Part shown: positions 6,219 through 21,087 of the stretch, piece after piece
Numbering within the stretch: the stretch's first letter is position 1
How the letters are laid out: every line of letters starts with the position of its first letter
NCBI GenBank assembly: GCA_006503475.1
Contig: RSEH01000133.1
Span: 62,001 to 126,000 of the forward strand
Reading direction: 5' to 3'
Length of the DNA: 64,000 nt
Origin: Stentor roeselii
Taxonomy: Eukaryota; Ciliophora; Heterotrichea; Heterotrichida; Stentoridae
Notes under the pieces: model-generated
What the model was told of the DNA's origin: nothing
The model's database searches: none
Seen by the model: the letters and a program-made list of their open reading frames with translations, nothing else
Position numbers and translations under genes: made by a program

Positions 6219-8165
6219 ATGAAACAAGACGCTCCCAAGTTCCGGGTCTTTTCACCTTCACCTTTCAATAACACCGACTCGTCAACTTCTTCACTCAGTC
6301 GTCTTCAGGAACTCGAAATGGAGACCCCTGGGCAGGTGCTTTATACTGAACAACTTCCTAGTTACTCCAAGTTTTCATTGGAACATAAGTCCACTGAAAA
6401 AATTTACTTGAACAATGTCAAACGACAAACTCAGCAGGATCGAAGGACTTTAAGTGGAAGCTTCTGTGGAAATTGTGTCAAGTATCAGAAGACTGTTGAA
6501 GAACTTAAGTTGAAACAAAACTCGTTGTCTGAGAAGTTTGTTGTTACGGAAAAGCATTTGAAACAATATGACCACCTACTTCAAATCAAAGACAATCGTC
6601 TGAAACAACAAGAAAACTCCTTAAAAAGCGAACTCGAAACATTTGAAAAGGAAAAAGACAAACTAAACTGGGAAAAACAAAGAATAGAAGAAGAAAAAAT
6701 CGAAATCCAAAGAGAAAAACAGCTACTTCTTCATGAAACCCGTAGAATTGAGTACGAAATGGAAGAACTTCACAACAAAAGCAAAGAAATCTCCTCACTT
6801 TTCGAGTCACTCGAAATTAAAAAAGCTGAGCTTCAGTCACTTGAAAAATCTTTCAGCAGTCCTGAAAAAGACTTGAAACAATCTCTGATAATCAGCAGAG
6901 AAAACGACATTCTTCGACTAATGGACGAGATCCAGTCATACAAATCCGACTCAAGCCCAGTCCTTTCAGACCATTCTTTAGACATGCAAAAATGTCTTCG
7001 TCAAAAAGAAAAAAACAAGCAAAAAAAAATCCAGCTTAAAAACTTTGCAAATGATTTGATGCAGATGAAGGAAAAATTTGAAAATGAACAGAAACAAAAC
7101 TTTGAAGAATTCGAAAGTCGAATGAGTTTTCTTAGTGAAACTCAACAAAAAATCATTGAGGAAAAAAATCAATTGGATAAAATTAAGGATGATTTGAGTT
7201 GTCAACTTGAAGTTGTTAATAAGGCGAAGAGCTTACTTGCTAGTCAGCAGGAAGCTTTTGAAAAGGAAAGAGAATTATGGCAGGGAAAACTTGTCGATGG
7301 CATGCTTGAGACTCCTAAACGGTCACGAACTAGGTTTAACATCAACAAACCTGATTGCTCAAACTGCAAAATCCAATCGACTATAATTGATGAGCTCAAA
7401 GAAAACATTTCAGATCACGAAGAAACCCTAAAAAAACTGCAAAAAGAAAATGAGAACTTAAAAGAAAGAGCAGATGTTCTAGAAGGAAAGCTGAAAATAA
7501 TAGAATGCAGTCGAGAAGAATATGAAAACGAAAATGAAGACTTAAAGCAAAGCCTTTCTTCCTTAAAACACAAAAAACGTGAACTTAAAGGCAAATTAGA
7601 AGAACTTCAAAACATTCTAAGCATCGATGATGGAAGCGCAAAACAACAAATTGAAAAACTGACAAACGAACTGCAAAAATATAGAGAAGATCGAAATGAA
7701 ATCAATAAAGAAAATTTGAATTTATCATCAAAAGTACAGATTTTAACTTTAAAATGTGAAGAACTTGAACAAGAACTTGAAAAATCGAATGGGTCTGCTA
7801 CTCTTGAACATAATCAAAGTGTTTCAGGGTTATTAGTCGAGTTGCAGGTAAAACTTGAAAAATTAAAAGATAAAGAAAATGAGTTGATGCTCTTGCAAAA
7901 TCAACTAAATGAAGAAAGAATTTCTGTCCAGTCAGCTGCTGAGTTCATCAAAAGTATCAACCAAGACCTTGCTGTTCAAAGACAAGCGATCGAAGAAGAT
8001 AAGTCAAACAATGAAATCCAAAAACTAAAAATAGTCGAGCTCGAAAAAATGCAGAAAGACAAGGGAAAGATGCTTCTAGACAAAGAAAAAGAACTAAACT
8101 TATATCGTGAAAAACTAGTAGAAAGAGAAAATTTGTTAATATTGAAAGAAAAGAAACCTGCTTAA
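6219..8165 (+). CDS. Long coiled-coil protein with two CxxC motifs
   Basis: 648 residues, nearly all charged coiled coil after a Ser/Thr-rich head of about 75 residues. Two similar short elements interrupt the coil: CGNCVKYQKTVEELK near residue 83 and CSNCKIQSTIIDELKE near 376. Each is a CxxC followed directly by a heptad start, so each may form a zinc-linked coil nucleus; this reading is inference. No catalytic domain. It starts 34 bp after the RING/coiled-coil gene on the same strand, and the two proteins resemble each other in overall build, so they may act in one structure. I cannot assign a named family. Ends in TAA followed at once by TGA. Confidence 0.75.
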   Translation: MKQDAPKFRVFSPSPFNNTDSSTSSLSRLQELEMETPGQVLYTEQLPSYSKFSLEHKSTEKIYLNNVKRQTQQDRRTLSGSFCGNCVKYQKTVEELKLKQNSLSEKFVVTEKHLKQYDHLLQIKDNRLKQQENSLKSELETFEKEKDKLNWEKQRIEEEKIEIQREKQLLLHETRRIEYEMEELHNKSKEISSLFESLEIKKAELQSLEKSFSSPEKDLKQSLIISRENDILRLMDEIQSYKSDSSPVLSDHSLDMQKCLRQKEKNKQKKIQLKNFANDLMQMKEKFENEQKQNFEEFESRMSFLSETQQKIIEEKNQLDKIKDDLSCQLEVVNKAKSLLASQQEAFEKERELWQGKLVDGMLETPKRSRTRFNINKPDCSNCKIQSTIIDELKENISDHEETLKKLQKENENLKERADVLEGKLKIIECSREEYENENEDLKQSLSSLKHKKRELKGKLEELQNILSIDDGSAKQQIEKLTNELQKYREDRNEINKENLNLSSKVQILTLKCEELEQELEKSNGSATLEHNQSVSGLLVELQVKLEKLKDKENELMLLQNQLNEERISVQSAAEFIKSINQDLAVQRQAIEEDKSNNEIQKLKIVELEKMQKDKGKMLLDKEKELNLYREKLVERENLLILKEKKPA

Positions 8166-8944: not shown

Positions 8945-9748
8945 TTAACAACTAGTTTCAAGAAGTCTATCAAACACCTCTTCTCCAGTATTTTTCGTCA
9001 CCAATTCCTCCACAATTCTTCTATTTTCCAAGTCTTGTTTCACACATTTCGAGACTTTGGCTTCATGTTCCCTGATTTTATTAAAAGATTCAAGTACAAA
9101 TCCAGCAGTATTCCAAAGTCCTTGAACTTCAACCCTGACAGGAGGTATAAAAGAAAACCTAAATGACATTTTCGGTAACGTAAAACCGGAGATCTCAGCA
9201 TAAAACTTGTACTGATCAAGAGTTTTATGCACAGAAGAGTTGTCAACAACAAGAGCGACCCTGCAAACAAACTCAGCATCATGATGAGTCTTAGTGAAAT
9301 GACTAGGAATGAACGTTGTAAGGCTCGGAAGACTGAACAACAAAGAGCTTAAATTTTTCAGTTCATTCAATAATCCACTTTCAACCAGTTCTGAACTATG
9401 CAGAAGAGTCTTTTGCCCGAGGAGTAAGTCGTTTAGGAAGGAAACAGTGCAGAAGGACTCGCTAGGAAGAAGGAAACCTCCGGTTTCCTTGAAAAATTTA
9501 AATTTCTGCATCATGCTTGAAGTCTTCTGAAGGTACTCTGAGACTGTGGAAGTCTCTTTCGGGTACAGGGTGTTAGTCAGGCTTGACTGTAAAAAGCAGC
9601 TGAAGGAAGTAACACCCGGCTCAGACAGTGACCAACAGTTGGCCTCTGGACGGTCTAGTCCTCGATAGAGCTCAAATCGAATCATTCCTTGAAGCTCTTC
9701 TTTGAGTTTTTCCATCAGCTTCGTTAGAAGGCCTTCTTCAATGTTCAT
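8945..9748 (-). CDS. Unrecognised 267-residue protein
   Basis: I do not recognise a family. The protein starts MNIEEGLLTKLMEKLKEELQG, has a Ser/Leu-rich middle with four cysteines and a helical C-terminus rich in Lys/Glu (near residues 220-265). There is no signal peptide or membrane segment, so it is probably cytosolic. The start codon is preceded by TAA and followed by a clean open frame with codon use like its neighbours. Its 5' end lies only 37 bp from the EF-hand gene's start region on the same strand (the EF-hand gene lies downstream). A tandem repeat fills the spacer upstream, towards the giant channel gene. Confidence 0.7.
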   Translation of the reverse strand: MNIEEGLLTKLMEKLKEELQGMIRFELYRGLDRPEANCWSLSEPGVTSFSCFLQSSLTNTLYPKETSTVSEYLQKTSSMMQKFKFFKETGGFLLPSESFCTVSFLNDLLLGQKTLLHSSELVESGLLNELKNLSSLLFSLPSLTTFIPSHFTKTHHDAEFVCRVALVVDNSSVHKTLDQYKFYAEISGFTLPKMSFRFSFIPPVRVEVQGLWNTAGFVLESFNKIREHEAKVSKCVKQDLENRRIVEELVTKNTGEEVFDRLLETSC

Positions 9749-9796
9749 TTATGGGGGGTTAATTTAAATGAAAAAATAAAAAGAGGAGGGAAAAGT

Positions 9797-9996
9797 GATT
9801 TAAAATTAAGTAATTGTTGATGAAAGTTTAGATAAAGTTAGAAGATGATTAAAAATTTAGTGATTGTTGGTGAAAATTTAGATAAAGTTAGAAGATGATT
9901 TAAAATTAAGTGATTTTTGATGAAAGTTTAGATATAGTTAGAAGATGATTAAAAATTTAGTGATTGTTGATGAAAGTTTAGATAAAGTTAGAAGAA
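9797..9996. repeat. 50-bp tandem repeat, four copies
   Basis: Units begin at 9797, 9847, 9897 and 9947, exactly 50 bp apart, each containing a version of GAAAGTTTAGATAAAGTTAG. Units 1 and 3 share one variant near their start (TTAAAATTAAG) and units 2 and 4 share another (TAAAAATTTAG), so the array is a duplicated dimer. It lies in the divergent promoter region between the unknown gene and the channel gene. Confidence 0.9.
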
Positions 9997-10069: not shown

Positions 10070-13000
10070 ATGGAGCCGGAAGACGAACCTGAAATGAAAA
10101 AAGACAGTTTTAGACCCGATGAGATCCGCTTAAGCACTGAAGAAAAGCCCCTGATAAAAAACCAATCCTTCATCAACGTCGAAGTAAGCATCCCTCACTT
10201 TGAACACCCAGGGGGAGTCAACCCGTCTTATCCAAAAGAAGAAGAAAAACTACTTAAAAGCCCGAGTCCTCCTTTTCCCAAAACCAAAGAACAGAACTTC
10301 CCAGAGCTTCCTCCCTGGATGGAAGAATCAATGTCGCCCATTCCTAAAACCAACGAGCATGTCAACAAAAAACCGTCATGGGTCCCATCTGAGAGTCAAA
10401 AAAGCAACTCGTCTTCTCCAAATCATGAAAAAAACCCTTTAAAAGAAGCGCCGCCTTGGGTAGTTTCTCAGTCACAATCACGAAAATCGCCAGCAAAACG
10501 AACTTCTTATTCAATAGTCCAAAAAGACCCACCTTCTAAACCCCTCGACGTAAGCAGCAGCCCTTCTCAAAAGAAGAACTCTTTAAACATGTCCAGTAGC
10601 CCTTTAAACGAAAATAAATCAATTGAAAAAATTCCAAATCTACCCTCATGGGTTCCAAAGCCAGAAAGTGAATCTTTATCAAAAAAAAATAACTCCACAG
10701 AGAAAAAATCAGAAAATCAAGAAATTCCTTCGAAAAACTTTCAAAGTCCTCGAAATTCTTCACCTATTTTAACATTTCCTGGAAAAAACCCTTCAAAACC
10801 CACCCCGTCACCGACTCGCTTCAATCCACAGGACGACCGGCCTCCTTGGTTCCTAGAAAATCAACCTGAAGCGGTGGTGTCCATCAAAAAAGACCAGGAA
10901 AAGTTCACTTCTGATAAAAAAGACTACACAAATGAAGACCTTCCACCTTGGGTCTCTTCAAACGTCTCTCAACCTGAAGCTTCTCGTAAAAAAAACATAA
11001 GAACTAAAAAAATCACGAAAGAAATCGATAGACCTCCTTGGGTCTCAAATAAGGAAAAGCCAAATGGTGAAGTTTCAGCTTTGCAGAAAAATCCAGGATT
11101 TCAATTGGAAAATGAAAATTTTCCTAAAATACCGAAATTTACTACTGCTGATTCAAATAATGAAAATTTTTATCAGGTTGTTGAGAAAAATTTGGAAATT
11201 TTACCGAAATCTGAAGTTTTAGGGAAAATTGAAAAAATCAATGAACTGCCTCCTTGGTTTAGTCAACAAGATGAAGAAATACCTCCGCGTCGTGAAGAAG
11301 AGAAAAAAGAAATGGGTGATAAAAATAGCAAATTTTCCATTAAAGTTGAAAAACCTGTTGAAAAAGAAAAACATGTCAAGTTTGATGATAAGTCAAAAAT
11401 TGAACAGGGACCTAATGAGCTTCCTCCTTGGTTTAGTCAGCCTGAGGATGTTCTTACTGAGACTGAAAAAGCCCAGCCTAGTGATCCAGACCCTTTAAAA
11501 CCATCATCAGGTCCTAAAGGAATAATAAAAAAATCTGAAGATCTTCCACCTTGGTTTGATAATGAAGAGTCTTCTATAAAGGAAGTTGAAAAGCCTTTAA
11601 AACCAATCTCAGCATTTTCTTTACCCTCATCTTCCAAAGTAGAAGAAAAATCTTCAGAAAAACCTGCAGAAGTAAAACCTCCAGAAACAAAACCTCCAGA
11701 AAAAAAACCTTCAGAAACAAAACCTCCAGAAACAAAACCTCCACAAACAAAACCTCCAGAAAAAAAACCTCCAAAACTTTTCATAAAACGAGAAGAGCCT
11801 GAAAACCTTCCACCTTGGATGCAGCCTGGAGAAGAAACCAAAGAAAAACTAATCCCTTCGCCAAAGCTTCAAAACGCCCCTTCTCACCCAAGTCTTCCAC
11901 CCTGGATGGCCGATGACGACCCTCCCCAGAAGTCTCAATCAACCAAAGATCTTCTGCAATCCCCCGTAAAAAACGATCAAACTCTCGAAAAAAACTTAAA
12001 AAAAGATCCTATAAAACCTTCAGATTCTTTAAAATTAAAAAAAAATCCAGAATCTAACTCAAATGACTCTCTTCCTCCATGGCTGGAAACGAAAAGTAAC
12101 TCAAAACTTCCAAATTTAAAAGACCAGAAACCTCCTCCATTAATTCCAAAAACAAATGAAAACATTCCTGTTTGGTTCACGAAAGATGATTCAAATGACC
12201 CTCCTTTTCTAGAAGCCGAGCAAGGGTTAAGTAAAGACATCGGATCAGTTTTACCTCCATGGATAACTTCTCCAAACAACCAAAACACTTCAAATCTTTT
12301 TTTTCCATCAAGACCAGCAACCCGCCCTGCATCAGCGAAGCCAGAAGGAACCAACCAGAACCACCCTGCACAACCTGTAAAATTAGAAACAACTGAAAAA
12401 ATCTTTATCATGGGTAAGAAAAAATCAAGAGGGCACTTCGAAAAGCGTCCATCTCTTTTAATTCAAAAGGAAAGTTCAAAGTCAGGCTTCATCCAATACG
12501 GGGACATCCTCTGCCTGTCCTCAAAAGAAACAATAAGTTTCGATGACAAGACAATAATCTACAGAGGAGTCATAACTGGAGATGGAATTTCTTATAATGA
12601 CCTTGGATGCATTTCAAAGACTATAGTCAAAGAACAATCATTCAACATCCAGTTCCGTCAAAGTCTCTTCCGAGTAGAACCAGCTCGTCAATACGGTTTT
12701 TTAAACGTTTACAACAAGTACATAAAAAAACCGAATTATGAAGAAAAATACGCGAAAATCTTGAAAGAACAGGCGGATGAAGAAGAACAGGGCAATGAAG
12801 CTGAAATTGAATTGACAACAGGGCAGATTTTAACTTATGGAGAAAGGATTCAATTACGTCATATTCATAGCAACTGCTTTATAACGATTTCTAGAGATAT
12901 CGCTATTGAACATGGAGCACTTAAAGTTAAACTTGATTACAAAGGTAGTGAAAACTCCTGGCTTGAAATCTTACCTTCGAATAAAATAAGACAAGAAGGA

Positions 13001-16000
13001 GAACCTGTCAGGTACATCGATGGTTTTTTAATTACTTCGAAAGTTGAAAAAAGTTCTTATTTCATTCATTTAGGGAAATCTACTGTCAAGGCTGAGGAAA
13101 AGGTCGGCGAGGTCAACGCGAGTGAAGAAGTTTCTGTTTGGAGGGCAAAAAAATATATCACTGTTCATGAACAACGGCTTAACCCTGGAAGTATTTCTAC
13201 GGGTGACTCTTTTAGGATCTTACATAAGGACAGTGAAAGATATTTAAGTGCTGCTGCTATCAATATTCAAACCTTGCTTCCACCTATTGAAAAGGAAAAA
13301 GAAGCTGAAGATGATGAACTCACTTCTTGTGTTGTTGCTGGACCCTCTGCTGGAAAAGGAAAGGAAGTCGATGCAAAGTATACTGAACTTGTACTTGATA
13401 AAAATAATACAAGCAGAGGTCTTTGGGAACTGGAAAGAATCAACCCTTTTCAAGGAGGACCTTCACATTTGGAGGAAGAATATCGACTTAAAAATATCGC
13501 CACTGGAATGTATCTGCATATTGAAAGAACTACAAAATTAAGTAAAAATTCTACTGAGATACAACTTGTCAATTCTTTTAAATTTGAACAGGAAGAATCT
13601 AGGTCACTCTTGTTGTTTAATACAAACTTGCAGATTAGGTATCCGGCTAAGTCTATATTTTTAGGAATTGTGGAAAAGGAGGATTCTATTGAAAAGTATT
13701 TTAAAGGAACTAAGATTGAAAAACATTCGGAATTTTATATGCAGACTTTTGAATCTGATAAAAAAGCGGAAATTCAAACTACTTTTATTTTTGAGGATGA
13801 GTCTGAAAAAAACAGCTCACATGTTTACCAAATCTCTACAATTTTAATGTCACTAGTCGAGATTTACAAACAAATCAACGTCTGGGGTTTTCTAAGACAA
13901 GGTTCTAACTACTACTCAAGCTACAAGATGGCTGTGGACACTGAAATCGAGCTAATGGAAATAGTAAACAGAGGAACTGAACTTCTTGACAACCTGAAAA
14001 ACAAGATTCTAAATCCTTCAAATTTCTACCTGATCCAAAACCAAATGACAATTAAAGATTCAGGTCTTCTCGAGCTTTTACTGAAGCTTCTTCAGCTAAT
14101 TGATATCCGTCTCACTATTTCTGCTTCGAAACAATCTCAGTCATCAACAATTGAGAAGGAAAAGTTTAACATGAGTAAATTGTTCCAAAGCAAAACAAGA
14201 GAAATTATTCAATGTCCGCAGGCAGTTTCTCGAAAACATCTCAGAAGACTAGCATCTTCAATCTACAGGATTTTAGTCTTATGCATAAAGGACAACGTCT
14301 CTTGCTGTGAATTTGTAAAATCACATAATGAGTTCTTAGGTCTACAGCTGATGCAATACAAAACTGAAGTCGGGACATTATTACGAGAAATTTTCAAACA
14401 TTCAACTTCGACAATCAGTGAAAGTTCATTAAATGAGTTTCAAATGTGGGTTAGTCAACTGCGATCTTTGAATGAATCAATGGAAAATGTTTCTGATCAA
14501 ATTTTAATTCTCAAGATTATTTCGAGTCTTTGCACTTTCAAAGAACAAGGAATGAAAAAGTATCAAGTTTATGTCAATAAGTTCATTTTTAAGAGATTGT
14601 CAATGTTTGTTCATTTAAGGGAAACTAGCGACGATCTTGAATTCAAATTCTTGCCGATTAATGAAAGTGAAGAAGAGTTTATTAGGAATAATCCTTCGAT
14701 TGCTGAATTTTCTGATGGAGGGGTTACATCGCCTTATATTTCGATCGCGAATCTGAGTGATGGACTTGTTCGGTATCTTTGTGCTGTGATAAACTTGCTG
14801 GCAACAGCCAGTTTATCCGAAAACAATTCAGTAATCGAAAGGTTACGAGACTACAACAAAATCTCCCCACAAGGCCTGCTGATATCAATAAAAAACCATT
14901 CCAACAAAGTGAAAATAAAAACAAGATTCCTCTACCTTCTCCGAGTCCTATATCTATATGAAACCCACAAAATCAGTCCAAAAGAGTTCAAAATAATAGA
15001 ATGGGACAACGAAACCAACAAAATAATCAAGTCTCGAGTTTTTTCCCCTGAATGGGTAACAGATTTGATTGAATGGGTCCGAATGGTCTGGACTTCGCAA
15101 GAACCTCAATTTGGAGTCTTAAGTTCAACAAAAGAAGGAGTTTCATTTGTGATTGAACTTGTCAACATTACAAAAGTTCTCATTCATAATAACTTCACAA
15201 CTTATGAGTTCATTGAAGATATTTGCCCTTTTCTTGCTTTGGTACTTTCGGATAACTCTAATACGGATATTGTTAGACTTTGTAGGTCTGGACATTGGTG
15301 CTGCTGTATGAGGGAAAAAGCCTCCACTCATCCGGAATTACTGCAAACTCTTGTTTTTAAAGTTATGAGACTTTTTGAAGATATTTCTGAGGTTAAACTT
15401 CAGAGACAAATTGAATTTTTGATTGAGAATCATACGGTTGAATTGAAAAAAGAAGTTATAGAACGTTTCAGTATCAATTTTAAAGTTCAAAATAATCAAT
15501 ATTTCAACATGTACCTGCTCAACGTAATGCTATCAAAATTCGAAAAGTACATCAGAGACTACGCATCAGAGCAACTAGTGCAGATCTTCAACCAGCGCAA
15601 TTTCATAAAGACAGAAACCGACGAGCTGATCCTTTTATACGAGCCAGGAATGGTAGAAGTAAAACAAAAATGTTACAGTTGCGTGAGCAACTTAAAAAAA
15701 CACATCGAAAGTCTAAACCTGCAAGTGAGTTACTTGAAAGACAACAAAAGTCTAGAAGACAACAAAAAGCTTCAAAGTGTTTTAAAAGAAATATTAAAGA
15801 CATTAAATGAACTTCAGATGATGATGAACATAAAAGGAGACTCAGACCTGTTAAAGCTCGGTCAAAACATTTTCAGATGTCTTCAGCTCGACGAGATTTT
15901 GATAAAATTCTTGGAACAGCCCTACCCGTGGCTAGTGCAGGTCTCTCCCTACAGAAAAAAAGTGAGAAAAAGCCAACTTACACTTTACAGAGCAATAGCG

Positions 16001-19000
16001 AGTACCTTATCCGCTTACACCTTTCACAATTCCAAGAACCAAGAAGTGGTTTATTCAAGCATCGCCTTGATCATCTCTTACTTTGGAAATAAAATGGGAG
16101 TAAGTCGCCTTATCTCTCATATTGCAAGTTCTCAAAGAACTGCTTCTAAGGTGGACCATGTCATTATTTACATCTTTCATCTCATCACTCAAGAAAAAGA
16201 TAACCCGCATCATCCTTATTTAAAAATTTTGAAAAATTTGGTAATTGATGAAAATTATCAGATGTTTCTTTGGACTCAAACAAATATCGTGAAGTTTATT
16301 TTGAAAAATGAAAGTATTGTTAGTTATTATTGCAGTAATGGCACTTGGAATATCATCGAGTATAAAGATTTTCCAGGGATTGAGTTTCATAAGACTTTTA
16401 TTTCACTTTTGTCACTTTGTGCTGTTCAAAATGAATTTGTGACACTTCAATGTAGGAATTTGGTTGCTTTTCCTGTACTTGAACGTGAAATCTGCAATAA
16501 TCAGACACCTTATAGTTTAAAAATCACTTATCTTATGTTTGCATTGAATGTTTATTTTTCACATGTTTCTGAGGAATTGGGTGCTGAGTTTCCGTTTGAT
16601 TATCTTTCAGAAATACTGAAAAATGTGGTACTTAAAGACTTACAACTTTACACTTATTATCTCGCTGATTTTCTAAGTATTGTCCAGAAGTTCAAATTCC
16701 CTGGAATTATAAAAAGAAAAGACATACTCGCATTACGTCCTTCAATCTCAGAAGATCACGACATAAATGACCAGGAATTGACTCCTGATGAAATTGAAGC
16801 CTTGAATTATTGGAAGTATTTACTTGACACTAAACTTTGGAAAAACGAGCAAAGTTCAGGATTGCTTATTTTTATTAAAGATTTAAGTATTGAGTTGAAA
16901 CTTTGCAGGTTTGAACCTAATGATGAGTATAAAGTCACTATTTTTAAGATTTCCGAAATTATTCAAAGGATTCATGCGAAAATTGAAGGGATTAGTGCCC
17001 AGAATCCGAGAATGAACTTTGATAGTTATATTGAAGGAGTTAGTCTTTGTTGGTGTGAAATACCGAAGTATTCTTTTGAGAATGAAGAGGAAAATATTGA
17101 AGAGTTAGTTAAAGCACAGTGCTATTCTAATCTTATTGATACTATCAAAGATTATCTTATTGACCAGAAAATGACCATTCAAGACTTCTTCATATACAAA
17201 CTCAAGGTAAACAGCGAAATAATCCCAAGCAAGTCTCTAGCCTACAAGCTAAAAAACGAGCTAAAATCACTAGAATTCGCAACAATAACAACAGGCCTTT
17301 CAAAAATGACAGCAAAAAGCAACCAAGTAATGATAAACATAAAAGACCTAAAATCTGCAATAATCGCAAATTCAGGTCTTGACGATCAAAAATTCGACCG
17401 AAATCCAACAATGGCCGAAAACATTCACCAAATCCTATCCCAAAAAATGGACTCTTACAACAAGCGAGAAGTCGAGCTGAACCTCTTCATCCAAAGCATC
17501 CAACAAGCAATAGTAGAAAAGCTTCTTCTAAGTTTCGAGTACCCAAAAGTTCTCGACTTTTGCAAGACCCTCTTTTCAGCCTTATACCGAAAAAAATACC
17601 GAAAGTACCTTTTCGAGATTTTTACTCAATTCCTGAAAGTCGAAACTGAAGCAAATAGACCTAAAGACCAAAAAATTCGAAGAGTCGAGTTGATGAATAA
17701 AGCATTGCGACAAGCTGGAATCGGCGAAATCGCTTTAAATATGATTTGTGAAGGAAGAGACCTGGAGTCAGTCATCGCGGCGATTGAGTTCCTCCAGGTT
17801 ATATTTTTTTATAAGAACTCGAAGTTCAGCCTTCACATTTTAAGTTTTTTCAGTGACCCTTTGATTTGTTTCAATTTTTTTTCATTCTTTAAAAAATGTA
17901 TCAAGGATTTTCAAGACGAGGCTTTGAACAGGTCTCAAGGAATGATTGTAAAGCGCTTTAAGAGTTTTATTGATAATCGTAAGGCACATGAGGTAGAAAT
18001 GAGAGTGAATCTTTGTCTGCAAGCTTTAAAGCTGATTGAAAAGATGTGTGAACAGAACCCTGAAGAATTTCAAGACTTGTTTAGAAATCAGACGATTATT
18101 AATGAATTTGTGGTGAATGTCAATATTGTCTCTGAACTTACCAGTTTGTTGATTTCTTTTTCGACCTTTGAAAATAACTCATGTTTGAAGCAAGTGACTG
18201 ATCCTCAGTTTCAGCAGATTCGGTCTGTTTGCATCCAATGTTTGAAAACTCTTACTTCTCTTTGTGAAGGGCCTTGTAAGCAGAACCAGGTTGAAGTCGG
18301 TTTGAACTTCAAGGTTTATTCTTTTGTTAATTGGATGATGGTCGGGTTTAAGGATGTGATCAGTGAGCAGGGAAAGGACTATATTGAAATTTTAAAAGGG
18401 TCTATTGAGTTTCTTAGTTCTTTGATTGAAGCGGAACTTGAGCCTTTTATAATTAAAGAGATTTTGGTGCAGGTGGATGTTGAAAACTTGTTGAAAATTT
18501 GTTACTTTATTCATGAAAAATACGTCAGTGGAAAGGAAACTATTGTTTATCGAGGTGACAGGGACTATACAATCACGATTTTAGAACCTTTTAGAAGTAG
18601 TGTCCCTAAACTAGACCCTTATGTGAATAGGATCATTGGTGTCGGGTTTTCTATCTTCAACCTCTGCCTTTCATTGAAAGAGTCGTTTCCACTTTCAGAA
18701 AAGCTCAGTCAAATCAAATACACTCCAAAGTCCAATTCAAAAATTTCCAAATCTTCAGTCGCTGTACTTGATGAAAACTTAAAAACTGAATCAGCTACCA
18801 ACTTCTACCTTGAAAACATTTCAAAAATCGAAGTTAACTACAAAGGGTCTATTCTTCAAATTTATTTCCAGAGACCTTTTTTAACCCGTTTTTTAAGTGG
18901 AAAGTCCAGGTCGACTCTATTAAAAAACATTGGAAATTTTACATACCAGGCAAGAATCGAGGAGTTTTTTAAAAGGTGCATCAAGTATAAGTTCGAAATG

Positions 19001-20203
19001 ATTTATCAGCAAAGACTAGAAAGATACCCGTTGGTAGCGAGTTTTTGTTCATATTGGTATTACTACAAAACTATTTGTTTTTACATGACTTGCCTCATCA
19101 ACCTTATCCTTCTTGGAACTCTTGTAAGGTCAAATGACTCGATTTCTATTTCAGCGTCAGAAGGAGTCTCAAGAGTTCTTTCAATTTTGATGGCTCTTCA
19201 GATATTTTTCGCTATTCTCAGCCTTGCAGCTTATTTGTTTGAGTATTCGCCGATCCTCTACAGAGTCACCACATCGAAATCAATAAAAAAGACGGAAAGT
19301 CGAATTAATGGAACTGTTCTTGTCACTGAGTTGAAAAAGGTGAATATTGATAAAAATGAGAAAAATTTATGGCAAAGACTTTTTCAGGTCATTTCTGACT
19401 TTGATGTGATTTACTCGTTTATTTACATGTGGCTGTCATTTCTAGCGATTCAGAATTATCTGTGGTATGGTGTGTTGATTTTAGATTGTATTAAAAGAAG
19501 TCAGGTGCTTAAGAATGTTCTAAGGTCGATTACTTTGAATTATAAGCAACTGTTGTTGACTTTGATTCTTGGAATTATTATTACTTTCATATTTAGCATC
19601 TTTGGGTTTCTGTTCTATCGAAGTGACTACGGCAGCGGACAAGGAATGTACAGCTCTAGTCTTAGTGACTGTTTTTTCTCTACTCTCAATCATGGAGTCA
19701 GGGCTCAAGGAGGGATTGGTGATGTCCTGATTCAGTCAGACCCGTGGTATGATAGGATGCTTTTTGATATGGCTTTTTTTATTATTATCATCGTCGTACT
19801 GCTGAAAGTTATCTTTGGTATCATCATCGATACCTTCGCTGAACTGAGAGATATGAGAGAACAACAAATCAAAAACTTAGAACAAACTTGCTTTGTTTGT
19901 GGAAAAAGCAAATTCGACTTCGAACTCAGAAGACTCAGTTGGGCAAAACACATAAACGAAGAACACAACGCCCACGCATACGCAGCATTCTTCATTTACA
20001 TCATGCTAAAAAAAGAAGACCTGAGCGGCATTGAAAAATACCTAAAAAACCAGGTGGATACCAAAGAAATCACCTTTTTCCCTAAAACAAGCATCAGACT
20101 TGCTAAGTTCGAAACCGCAAAAGCTGAGATTAAAGAAAACTATTCTGAAAAGTTCAAAGACATCAGAAATCGTCTGGTCAAGTTAGCAGATTACAATGTT
20201 TAA
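10070..20203 (+). CDS. Giant IP3-receptor-type calcium-release channel with PPW-repeat N-terminus
   Basis: 3377 residues in one intronless frame. Residues about 80-730 are disordered and Pro/Ser/Lys-rich with 15 repeats of a [LRAI]PPW-type motif. From about 805 the IP3-receptor fold begins: beta-trefoil/MIR region (QYGDILCLSS, then LTYGERIQLRHIHSNCF near 920), a long helical armadillo/RIH region, and the channel from about 2990: six membrane segments, a selectivity filter with GGIGDV at 3214, and an inner helix IIIVVLLKVIFGIIIDTFAELRD. After it comes the family's zinc element, CFVC at 3274 and HINEEH. Known members release calcium from internal stores on IP3 binding and form tetramers. Channel and zinc motifs match well; IP3 binding itself is not shown here. 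The usual family length is about 2700 residues; the excess is the N-terminal array. Confidence 0.95.
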   Translation: MEPEDEPEMKKDSFRPDEIRLSTEEKPLIKNQSFINVEVSIPHFEHPGGVNPSYPKEEEKLLKSPSPPFPKTKEQNFPELPPWMEESMSPIPKTNEHVNKKPSWVPSESQKSNSSSPNHEKNPLKEAPPWVVSQSQSRKSPAKRTSYSIVQKDPPSKPLDVSSSPSQKKNSLNMSSSPLNENKSIEKIPNLPSWVPKPESESLSKKNNSTEKKSENQEIPSKNFQSPRNSSPILTFPGKNPSKPTPSPTRFNPQDDRPPWFLENQPEAVVSIKKDQEKFTSDKKDYTNEDLPPWVSSNVSQPEASRKKNIRTKKITKEIDRPPWVSNKEKPNGEVSALQKNPGFQLENENFPKIPKFTTADSNNENFYQVVEKNLEILPKSEVLGKIEKINELPPWFSQQDEEIPPRREEEKKEMGDKNSKFSIKVEKPVEKEKHVKFDDKSKIEQGPNELPPWFSQPEDVLTETEKAQPSDPDPLKPSSGPKGIIKKSEDLPPWFDNEESSIKEVEKPLKPISAFSLPSSSKVEEKSSEKPAEVKPPETKPPEKKPSETKPPETKPPQTKPPEKKPPKLFIKREEPENLPPWMQPGEETKEKLIPSPKLQNAPSHPSLPPWMADDDPPQKSQSTKDLLQSPVKNDQTLEKNLKKDPIKPSDSLKLKKNPESNSNDSLPPWLETKSNSKLPNLKDQKPPPLIPKTNENIPVWFTKDDSNDPPFLEAEQGLSKDIGSVLPPWITSPNNQNTSNLFFPSRPATRPASAKPEGTNQNHPAQPVKLETTEKIFIMGKKKSRGHFEKRPSLLIQKESSKSGFIQYGDILCLSSKETISFDDKTIIYRGVITGDGISYNDLGCISKTIVKEQSFNIQFRQSLFRVEPARQYGFLNVYNKYIKKPNYEEKYAKILKEQADEEEQGNEAEIELTTGQILTYGERIQLRHIHSNCFITISRDIAIEHGALKVKLDYKGSENSWLEILPSNKIRQEGEPVRYIDGFLITSKVEKSSYFIHLGKSTVKAEEKVGEVNASEEVSVWRAKKYITVHEQRLNPGSISTGDSFRILHKDSERYLSAAAINIQTLLPPIEKEKEAEDDELTSCVVAGPSAGKGKEVDAKYTELVLDKNNTSRGLWELERINPFQGGPSHLEEEYRLKNIATGMYLHIERTTKLSKNSTEIQLVNSFKFEQEESRSLLLFNTNLQIRYPAKSIFLGIVEKEDSIEKYFKGTKIEKHSEFYMQTFESDKKAEIQTTFIFEDESEKNSSHVYQISTILMSLVEIYKQINVWGFLRQGSNYYSSYKMAVDTEIELMEIVNRGTELLDNLKNKILNPSNFYLIQNQMTIKDSGLLELLLKLLQLIDIRLTISASKQSQSSTIEKEKFNMSKLFQSKTREIIQCPQAVSRKHLRRLASSIYRILVLCIKDNVSCCEFVKSHNEFLGLQLMQYKTEVGTLLREIFKHSTSTISESSLNEFQMWVSQLRSLNESMENVSDQILILKIISSLCTFKEQGMKKYQVYVNKFIFKRLSMFVHLRETSDDLEFKFLPINESEEEFIRNNPSIAEFSDGGVTSPYISIANLSDGLVRYLCAVINLLATASLSENNSVIERLRDYNKISPQGLLISIKNHSNKVKIKTRFLYLLRVLYLYETHKISPKEFKIIEWDNETNKIIKSRVFSPEWVTDLIEWVRMVWTSQEPQFGVLSSTKEGVSFVIELVNITKVLIHNNFTTYEFIEDICPFLALVLSDNSNTDIVRLCRSGHWCCCMREKASTHPELLQTLVFKVMRLFEDISEVKLQRQIEFLIENHTVELKKEVIERFSINFKVQNNQYFNMYLLNVMLSKFEKYIRDYASEQLVQIFNQRNFIKTETDELILLYEPGMVEVKQKCYSCVSNLKKHIESLNLQVSYLKDNKSLEDNKKLQSVLKEILKTLNELQMMMNIKGDSDLLKLGQNIFRCLQLDEILIKFLEQPYPWLVQVSPYRKKVRKSQLTLYRAIASTLSAYTFHNSKNQEVVYSSIALIISYFGNKMGVSRLISHIASSQRTASKVDHVIIYIFHLITQEKDNPHHPYLKILKNLVIDENYQMFLWTQTNIVKFILKNESIVSYYCSNGTWNIIEYKDFPGIEFHKTFISLLSLCAVQNEFVTLQCRNLVAFPVLEREICNNQTPYSLKITYLMFALNVYFSHVSEELGAEFPFDYLSEILKNVVLKDLQLYTYYLADFLSIVQKFKFPGIIKRKDILALRPSISEDHDINDQELTPDEIEALNYWKYLLDTKLWKNEQSSGLLIFIKDLSIELKLCRFEPNDEYKVTIFKISEIIQRIHAKIEGISAQNPRMNFDSYIEGVSLCWCEIPKYSFENEEENIEELVKAQCYSNLIDTIKDYLIDQKMTIQDFFIYKLKVNSEIIPSKSLAYKLKNELKSLEFATITTGLSKMTAKSNQVMINIKDLKSAIIANSGLDDQKFDRNPTMAENIHQILSQKMDSYNKREVELNLFIQSIQQAIVEKLLLSFEYPKVLDFCKTLFSALYRKKYRKYLFEIFTQFLKVETEANRPKDQKIRRVELMNKALRQAGIGEIALNMICEGRDLESVIAAIEFLQVIFFYKNSKFSLHILSFFSDPLICFNFFSFFKKCIKDFQDEALNRSQGMIVKRFKSFIDNRKAHEVEMRVNLCLQALKLIEKMCEQNPEEFQDLFRNQTIINEFVVNVNIVSELTSLLISFSTFENNSCLKQVTDPQFQQIRSVCIQCLKTLTSLCEGPCKQNQVEVGLNFKVYSFVNWMMVGFKDVISEQGKDYIEILKGSIEFLSSLIEAELEPFIIKEILVQVDVENLLKICYFIHEKYVSGKETIVYRGDRDYTITILEPFRSSVPKLDPYVNRIIGVGFSIFNLCLSLKESFPLSEKLSQIKYTPKSNSKISKSSVAVLDENLKTESATNFYLENISKIEVNYKGSILQIYFQRPFLTRFLSGKSRSTLLKNIGNFTYQARIEEFFKRCIKYKFEMIYQQRLERYPLVASFCSYWYYYKTICFYMTCLINLILLGTLVRSNDSISISASEGVSRVLSILMALQIFFAILSLAAYLFEYSPILYRVTTSKSIKKTESRINGTVLVTELKKVNIDKNEKNLWQRLFQVISDFDVIYSFIYMWLSFLAIQNYLWYGVLILDCIKRSQVLKNVLRSITLNYKQLLLTLILGIIITFIFSIFGFLFYRSDYGSGQGMYSSSLSDCFFSTLNHGVRAQGGIGDVLIQSDPWYDRMLFDMAFFIIIIVVLLKVIFGIIIDTFAELRDMREQQIKNLEQTCFVCGKSKFDFELRRLSWAKHINEEHNAHAYAAFFIYIMLKKEDLSGIEKYLKNQVDTKEITFFPKTSIRLAKFETAKAEIKENYSEKFKDIRNRLVKLADYNV

Positions 20204-20214
20204 ATAATAGTTAA

Positions 20215-21087
20215 ATGGAAAATATTTCGAATAAGGCATCAGAGTACTTAAAACGGGTGAAGGTGATGAAAGCATCAGTAATCGAAATGTTTTTAAATAA
20301 GAAAAAATTGGAAATTTTACCAAAAAATGATTATTTTAAGGATGTTTTGGTTTCAACAACTCTTCGAAGCATTACTGTGACTTTTTACTCTTCAGAAAAA
20401 AAGCTCAACTTTTACTTGAAGAGTGACTTGCCGGGGTTCGCCCATAGCATTGTTTGTTATTTCGACTCTATCTTTCTTTTAGCTGGGTGTAACCATTTAG
20501 GTGTACCTCTTGGCACAGTTTTTATTGCAAAGTTCTACAAAAGTAGTGAAAATAAACTGGAACTTGAATATTGTCGCAGATCTGAAGAGTTTTCATTGAA
20601 AGTTAAAAGAAGCTTTTGCACCTCGCTTTTATACAAAGAGCAAATTTTTGTCTTTGGAGGAAGAAACATTGAAGCTAGAGATAGTTTTGAAGTAATTGAC
20701 TTGAAAAGACCTGGAAGTGAAAATCAAATTAGAATGATGATGAGAAGAGATGGGTTTGTCAATAGTTGTTTGTTTGAAAATCTTGGGTTCCTTGTGTCTA
20801 GTGATTCAAATATCATTGAAATTTTTGATTTGGAAAATTGGAAGAGGGAGAATATTGTAACCATTAGCAACTTCTCTGGATTTGTTTTTGTGCATGTGGT
20901 TAAAAAGTTCAAATATTTGATTAGCTGTGAAGAACAAATAGTTATTTTTGATCAGAAGTGGAATTTTATTCACTCTTGTAGTTACGATTTTCAGATTTCC
21001 TGGATCCAAACTTATTCCTCTAATGAAGAGGGTGTTATTTATAATGATTTTTCCACAAATCAAATTAGAGTTATAAGCTTCGTTTGA
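20215..21087 (+). CDS. Kelch-like beta-propeller protein
   Basis: 290 residues. After a helical start of about 35 residues, the sequence runs as short beta-strand units of propeller type, including a kelch-like QIFVFGGRN near residue 142 and SDSNIIEIFDLENWK near 200. The glycine pairs are weakly kept, so the kelch assignment is tentative. No signal peptide or membrane segment. It starts 11 bp after the stop of the giant channel gene on the same strand, which leaves almost no room for a separate promoter; a shared transcript or an extremely short leader are both possible. It ends in TGA, and TAG follows in the same frame 12 codons later. Confidence 0.65.
   Translation: MENISNKASEYLKRVKVMKASVIEMFLNKKKLEILPKNDYFKDVLVSTTLRSITVTFYSSEKKLNFYLKSDLPGFAHSIVCYFDSIFLLAGCNHLGVPLGTVFIAKFYKSSENKLELEYCRRSEEFSLKVKRSFCTSLLYKEQIFVFGGRNIEARDSFEVIDLKRPGSENQIRMMMRRDGFVNSCLFENLGFLVSSDSNIIEIFDLENWKRENIVTISNFSGFVFVHVVKKFKYLISCEEQIVIFDQKWNFIHSCSYDFQISWIQTYSSNEEGVIYNDFSTNQIRVISFV

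Follow-up and report, generated by a model that had tools for sequence, protein, structure and literature searches.

Ciliates possess many calcium-release channel isoforms located at different organelles (PMC3213138, partial text), and a gene of Stentor roeselii that bears a 780-residue head on one such isoform, with a motif short enough to be made as a peptide, gives a handle on how each isoform reaches its place. What is the head, and what could it do for the channel behind it? We examined the gene within a stretch of 64,000 nucleotides (positions 62,001-126,000 of contig RSEH01000133.1, hereafter the window) and searched the 44.4-Mb genome, which comprises 522 contigs. The Trp-motif head proves to be gene-specific and unusual within a known channel family.

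The channel and its family

Stentor uses the standard genetic code, and under its stop codons the channel ORF is free of stops over 3377 codons (Table 1). Hidden tiny introns were rejected, as the ORF contains no GTA...TAG stretch of 14, 15, 16, or 17 nt. Behind the head, the channel part opens with the trefoil/Ins145 and MIR domains expected at the N-terminus of an IP3R/RyR family member and closes with a C-terminal pore carrying the GG[I/V]GD filter. The trefoil, MIR, RIH-associated, and pore domains stand in the same order as in metazoan IP3R types 1-3 and RyR, and the zinc-finger-like stretch beyond the pore resembles one near the C-terminus of IP3R/RyR.

Comparison of the channel part with solved chains gives IP3R3 as the top match (E 2.6e-65). 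At E <= 0.001 there are 72 distinct solved sequences, and the best 60 of these 72 are all IP3R or RyR. A profile built from the first 698 residues of the channel part together with 14 paralogues matches IP3R1 (E 1.5e-92); unlike the protein described here, metazoan IP3R1 has no such head, as this match begins at chain residue 5. The AlphaFold2 model of the same 698 residues has a mean pLDDT of 77.3, and a fold search with this model in the PDB returns IP3R3 first (E 8.7e-30, identity about 18%). Judged by sequence and by model, the protein from residue 804 on is a calcium-release channel of the IP3R/RyR type. The first-pass annotation had placed the normal IP3-receptor start at about residue 805, in agreement with the first Pfam domain at residue 804.

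Table 1. Features of the channel gene in window coordinates
Feature	Position	Strand	Basis
Channel gene with N-terminal head: single ORF, 3377 aa, IP3R/RyR-type calcium-release channel	10070..20203	+	ORF list, Pfam, PDB matches
Head, residues 1-780, disorder-like	10070..12409	+	Composition, Pfam, PDB, AlphaFold2
15-motif array, x-P-[P/S/V]-W-hydrophobic	10307..12265	+	Sequence count
Eight-copy tandem repeat of 15 bp within head, coding for KPPE/KPPET-type repeats	11659..11777	+	Repeat search
In-frame ATG, residue 781, past last motif; a start here drops the whole array	12410..12412	+	Start-context scoring
Ins145_P3_rec domain, residues 804-1033	12479..13168	+	Pfam, E 2.3e-23
MIR domain, residues 1109-1176	13394..13597	+	Pfam, E 4.4e-11
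RIH_assoc domain, residues 2645-2754	18002..18331	+	Pfam
Ion_trans pore domain, residues 3045-3262	19202..19855	+	Pfam
GGIGD in pore domain, residues 3214-3218	19709..19723	+	Sequence read
CxxC...H...H stretch, zinc-finger-like, residues 3274-3299	19889..19966	+	Sequence read

Family membership leaves the question of the ligand. R504, K508, R511, Y567, R568, and K569 are IP3-contacting residues of mouse IP3R1. At these positions the Stentor channel has I, M, K, N, V, and S, respectively, so that 0/6 are identical, a reading that rests on low-identity alignments (about 18%) with the numbering confirmed on the IP3R1 profile alignment. In that alignment, the TTGR loop of IP3R1 falls within an insertion missing from the profile. 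The contacts were also read across the whole set of 15 Ins145-domain loci described below: none keeps more than 3/6 contact positions, and R504 and Y567 are retained in 0/15. By its contact residues, then, the protein does not group with IP3-gated receptors (true IP3Rs), and metazoan IP3R1, which keeps these contacts, differs from it in this respect as well. The initial name of "IP3-receptor channel" holds for the family, on the strength of domains, profile, and fold; because the contacting residues are absent, it should be read as a family name that does not imply IP3 gating. The channels of Paramecium present a similar picture of differing use of the IP3-binding region, in that 16 of 34 align across it and a true InsP3 receptor has been demonstrated for one type (PMC3213138, partial text).

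The neighborhood of the gene has features of its own. A kelch-like ORF (20215-21087, +) begins 12 bases past the stop codon of the channel in a different frame, a very compact arrangement. On the other side, a 50-bp tandem repeat of four copies (90% match; window 9796-9995) ends 74 bases before the channel ATG, within the 321-bp gap between the channel gene and a minus-strand ORF (8945-9748). Farther upstream, ORF 6219-8165 (648 aa) matches Cnn_1N, the centrosomin N-terminal motif, at E 0.00031, which is under the curated cut-off.

Coding evidence and the start of translation

Two properties of the upstream frame bear on whether the head is made. Across its 780 codons there are 0 stops in frame vs 21-71 in the other five frames. 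A synonymous codon score, trained on the frames of the 14 paralogues, gives +0.046 per codon for the head and +0.050 for the channel body, compared with -0.093 (sd 0.014) for the shuffled head. One reverse frame of the head also scores +0.040, yet it holds 56 stops. Given a stop-free frame with coding-like codon bias, the head is very likely translated.

Where translation starts is a separate matter. We place the start at 10070 by inference, with a start-context score of -1.5. Other in-frame candidates are the ATG at residue 174 (-0.8), use of which would drop three motifs, and the ATG at residue 781 (-2.9). The starts of the 14 paralogues range from -8.3 to 7.2, and this scoring therefore does not decide among the candidates. 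The working protein might instead begin at residue 781, with the upstream frame serving an alternative isoform or going unexpressed. Such a protein would look like its relatives, since in 14/14 other loci the domain is preceded by a Met at a distance of 2-86 residues, and the residues that follow Met 781 resemble by eye the start of paralogue L009 (basic, [K/R]R.SL). It would also leave unexplained 780 stop-free codons that carry codon bias and a protein-level motif, and the context of this ATG is no better than that at 10070. We consider a start at residue 781 unlikely.

An in-frame TAA stands directly before the likely ATG in 8/14 paralogues (L012, L013, L015, L016, L019, L020, L021, and L022), which looks as if the start context favors TATAA or AATAA.

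The tryptophan motif array

The head is disorder-like in composition. It contains no Cys and 15.8% Pro, and it is rich in Lys, Glu, and Ser. On the charge-hydropathy plot it falls on the disordered side (H 0.36 vs a boundary of 0.41; 0.48 for the channel body), as do six of its six 130-residue blocks. An AlphaFold2 run on residues 1-810 as a single sequence without alignment, which is weak evidence, yields a mean pLDDT of 36.6 with one short helix. Pfam finds no family in the head even at E 10, and the PDB offers one match, a lipoprotein (E 1.2) that aligns with the KPPE stretch. The head is thus predicted to be disordered, as the first-pass annotation had proposed for the region upstream of the channel.

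Within this sequence, all 15 Trp residues (83, 104, 130, 194, 260, 294, 324, 396, 454, 495, 583, 612, 671, 702, and 731) lie in.P[PSV]W, as PPW in 12 cases, PSW in two, and PVW in one. PPW is expected 0.38 times, and its maximum in 20,000 shuffles of the head is 4. Of other tripeptides, PPP is observed once (3.03 expected), PPE four times (2.09), and PPF twice (0.64). Trp is followed (+1) by F, V, M, L, or I in 15/15 copies, with a probability of ~1e-11 under the head composition for a residue set picked after the motifs were seen. Ahead of the first Pro, position -3 holds Leu in ten copies, Arg in two, and Ala, Lys, or Ile in one each, and position -4 is D/E in 8/15 and one of D/E/N/S/T/Q in 13/15. 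Downstream, D/E make up 20% of positions +1 to +10 vs 15.5% overall and occupy position +5 in 8/15 copies. The motifs are spaced 21-88 residues apart, with a mean of 46.

These counts bear out the 15 Pro-Trp motifs noted at first ahead of the channel start. The types then listed (LPPW, RPPW, APPW, and PSW) are all present, although the list was incomplete, as Lys or Ile can also precede the prolines and one copy is PVW. The spacing of 25-70 residues given then is too narrow, and the acidic part of the "acidic or Ser-rich patch" said to follow most motifs amounts to a mild bias.

The DNA beneath the motifs is less uniform than the protein. Their Pro codons vary among CCT, CCA, CCG, and CCC, and most spacers differ too, while W, Pro at -2, and the hydrophobic +1 residue are kept, which indicates that the motif is maintained at the protein level. 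Taking the Trp motifs together, we rejected a recent DNA repeat as the origin because codons and most spacers differ. The KPPE stretch is a plain recent DNA repeat, separate from the Trp motifs. Its 15-bp slippage array lends some color to the idea that the head grew neutrally from Pro/Lys/Glu-rich sequence and that its motif copies are leftovers of duplication, and a few copies do have flanks in common (those at 11240 and 11414, for instance, agree at 83% over 35 nt). Neutral growth of this kind does not readily accommodate three positions fixed in 15/15 copies amid diverged spacers, or the codon differences among copies, and it appears highly improbable.

The abundance of PPW also raises the possibility of a translation brake, in which the 12 PPW among codons 1-731 would impose eIF5A-needing pauses and slow the synthesis of the channel, either for polyamine-sensitive dose control or for the timing of assembly. 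All 12 must be translated before the channel, and the excess over expectation given above is what such a brake would call for. PPW is described as the most prominent pause motif in bacteria without EF-P (PMC8705083, partial text) and, for the upstream reading frame of AZIN1, as the polyamine/eIF5A-sensed motif (PMC10855120, partial text). However, PSW or PVW stands in place of PPW in 3/15 motifs, there is no enrichment of PPP, and pausing leaves both the hydrophobic +1 residue and the polar or acidic -4 position unaccounted for. The fixed +1 residue and the PSW and PVW copies speak for selection on the protein motif rather than on pausing. We judge a brake to be an improbable function of the head; pausing at PPW may be a side cost.

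We then considered how widely the array occurs. An Ins145 domain search of the genome recovers 15 loci including the head-bearing gene, a set that covers the family members with this domain. This expanded family recalls that of Paramecium, with 34 channels of the IP3R/RyR family in groups CRC-I to CRC-VI and a pore core of GG[V/I]G (PMC3213138, partial text). Unlike the gene described here, with its 780-residue head, the Paramecium channels carry no Trp-motif head that is mentioned in the available text, and the word "proline" is absent from its main text (PMC3213138). None of the 14 other Stentor loci has an array between its upstream Met and the domain match, and none was found in six frames of the 2.8-3.7 kb upstream of them. 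The frames of L010, L012, and L014 contain single P[PS]W motifs.

In a tree of the N-terminal part, the head gene groups with L009 (84/82) and then with L012 (91/90), with forks below the starred level and with a long branch, L022, that meets the six-row group containing the head gene. As these nearest paralogues have no head, a single gain on the branch of the head gene is the simplest history.

At the genome level, a DNA pattern for [L/F]PPW-hydrophobic finds 60 sites (14 for the backwards control), nine of them in the head gene. The other 51 form no cluster; two of them, on contig C33, lie 3 kb apart. Fifty of these outside sites were read, 30 with ~1.5 kb on each side and 20 with ~300 bases so that some frames are cut, and for 50/50 the surrounding frame holds a single P[PSV]W, with most frames shorter than 100 residues. 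The remaining site lies inside L014, where its frame is 36 residues long. Being limited to [L/F]PPW-hydrophobic, the pattern would miss arrays made of R/A/K-PPW, PSW, or PVW alone. A search of the genome with the head sequence matches only itself among the best candidates. For this assembly we thus rejected a duplicated array or an array as a separate gene, the latter being an outcome that had been named beforehand as one that would refute the original proposal. The array is specific to one of the 15 Ins145-domain loci.

Four paralogues (L014, L016, L017, and L020) contain, farther along the gene and at a shared relative position, a putative 15-nt intron of the form GTA-N9-TAG. Its TAG is in frame, and the unspliced frame of each of the four would end there. 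These putative introns fit Stentor, in which a length of 15 nt is found for 92.8% of introns (PMC9505925, partial text).

Docking as a possible role of the head

A repeated motif with a conserved core, divergent spacers, and predicted disorder are features of a multivalent docking segment built from short linear motifs (SLiMs). Their combination with a high copy number in one paralogue makes the head look like a multivalent docking strip. We lean toward the reading that the head is an isoform-specific strip of this type that would hold or cluster this channel isoform. A multivalent docking segment had been the original suggestion, and it is the best reading of the sequence pattern, given a gene-specific array in a disorder-like head and 14/14 other loci without one; the cytoskeleton or cortex named as its target is a guess, as is any role in contraction.

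In such a mechanism, the motif (acidic/polar)-x-P-(P)-W-hydrophobic would be bound weakly by one Trp/Pro-reading domain, and 15 copies per chain, or about 60 per tetramer, would provide avidity. The N-terminal trefoil of IP3R architecture lies at the cytosolic end of the tetramer, and a strip fused to it would present these roughly 60 motifs to the cytosol. The head would thereby hold or cluster the isoform at one place, whether a scaffold, the cortex, or a site of membrane contact, and headless sister channels would go elsewhere; the docking head would have been gained by one isoform on its own branch. Binding, avidity, and positioning are what we infer from the sequence pattern. Isoform-specific placing would be a natural function, because in Paramecium the groups of this channel family are located on distinct organelles (PMC3213138, partial text).

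The same fusion of the head straight onto the trefoil domain could serve regulation within the molecule, with the motifs binding cytosolic domains of their own channel as a gate or inhibitor. The IP3R3 structure 6uqk, by its title, reveals a self-binding peptide. Against such a role, one pocket needs fewer than 15 copies over 650 residues, and the sequence marks no internal site. Intramolecular regulation therefore seems rather unlikely.

Among known tethers, docking by the head comes closest in working principle to Homer, the best-known tether of IP3R-type channels. A short proline-plus-aromatic motif is common to both, and through such a motif Homer ties IP3 receptors to a scaffold (PMC2666743, partial text). 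The EVH1 domain of Homer takes PPxxF ligands or, in relaxed form, [PIALV]Pxx[FWY] (PMC11237882, partial text). The relaxed pattern fits 4/15 head motifs (LPPWF three times and IPVWF once) and not the other 11, and the only PPxxF of the head (PPKLF) lies outside the Trp motifs, so that a Homer-type (EVH1) ligand was rejected. In the genome, a WH1 domain search finds one protein (on C40), which by eye looks more WASP-like, an affinity that Pfam did not confirm; its only other Pfam match is a weak one to DCP1 (E 0.065).

Other proline-reading systems were compared with the head. GYF domains give seven matches in the genome, three of which were read, and GYF ligands are of the PPG-hydrophobic type; the Gly of this form is missing from the head motif. 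The FFAT pattern that was tried has no match in the head, and clathrin-box, AP2 DPW, WRPW, KLC W-acidic, LIR, GW/Ago-hook, and ALG-2 motifs seem not to fit. A Dictyostelium protein with [LF]PPPP motifs, which is not known to be a channel, differs further in that its motif has no Trp. Like the head, it carries an array of weak proline motifs, in six copies, and multivalency was proposed to matter there (PMC11237882, partial text).

Searches of Pfam, the PDB, and the literature returned no known reader domain for the Pro-Trp motif, and the literature on LPPW and on PPW motifs or repeats, as far as its available text goes, yielded no such docking motif. One reader domain usually serves several client proteins, and for the searched pattern there is no second multi-motif protein, which fits either a private partner or none. 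A more specific version of the docking strip is offered tentatively, as possible but doubtful: an undescribed SLiM, arrayed 15 times on one isoform (~60 times per tetramer) and read by a Trp/Pro-binding domain, would draw that isoform together in clusters or bring it to one structure for local calcium release. If true, a Trp/Pro motif joins the known tethers of IP3R-type channels, and one of 15 channels releases calcium locally at the sites of need in the cell. Through its PPW codons, synthesis of the channel may in addition be eIF5A- and polyamine-dependent.
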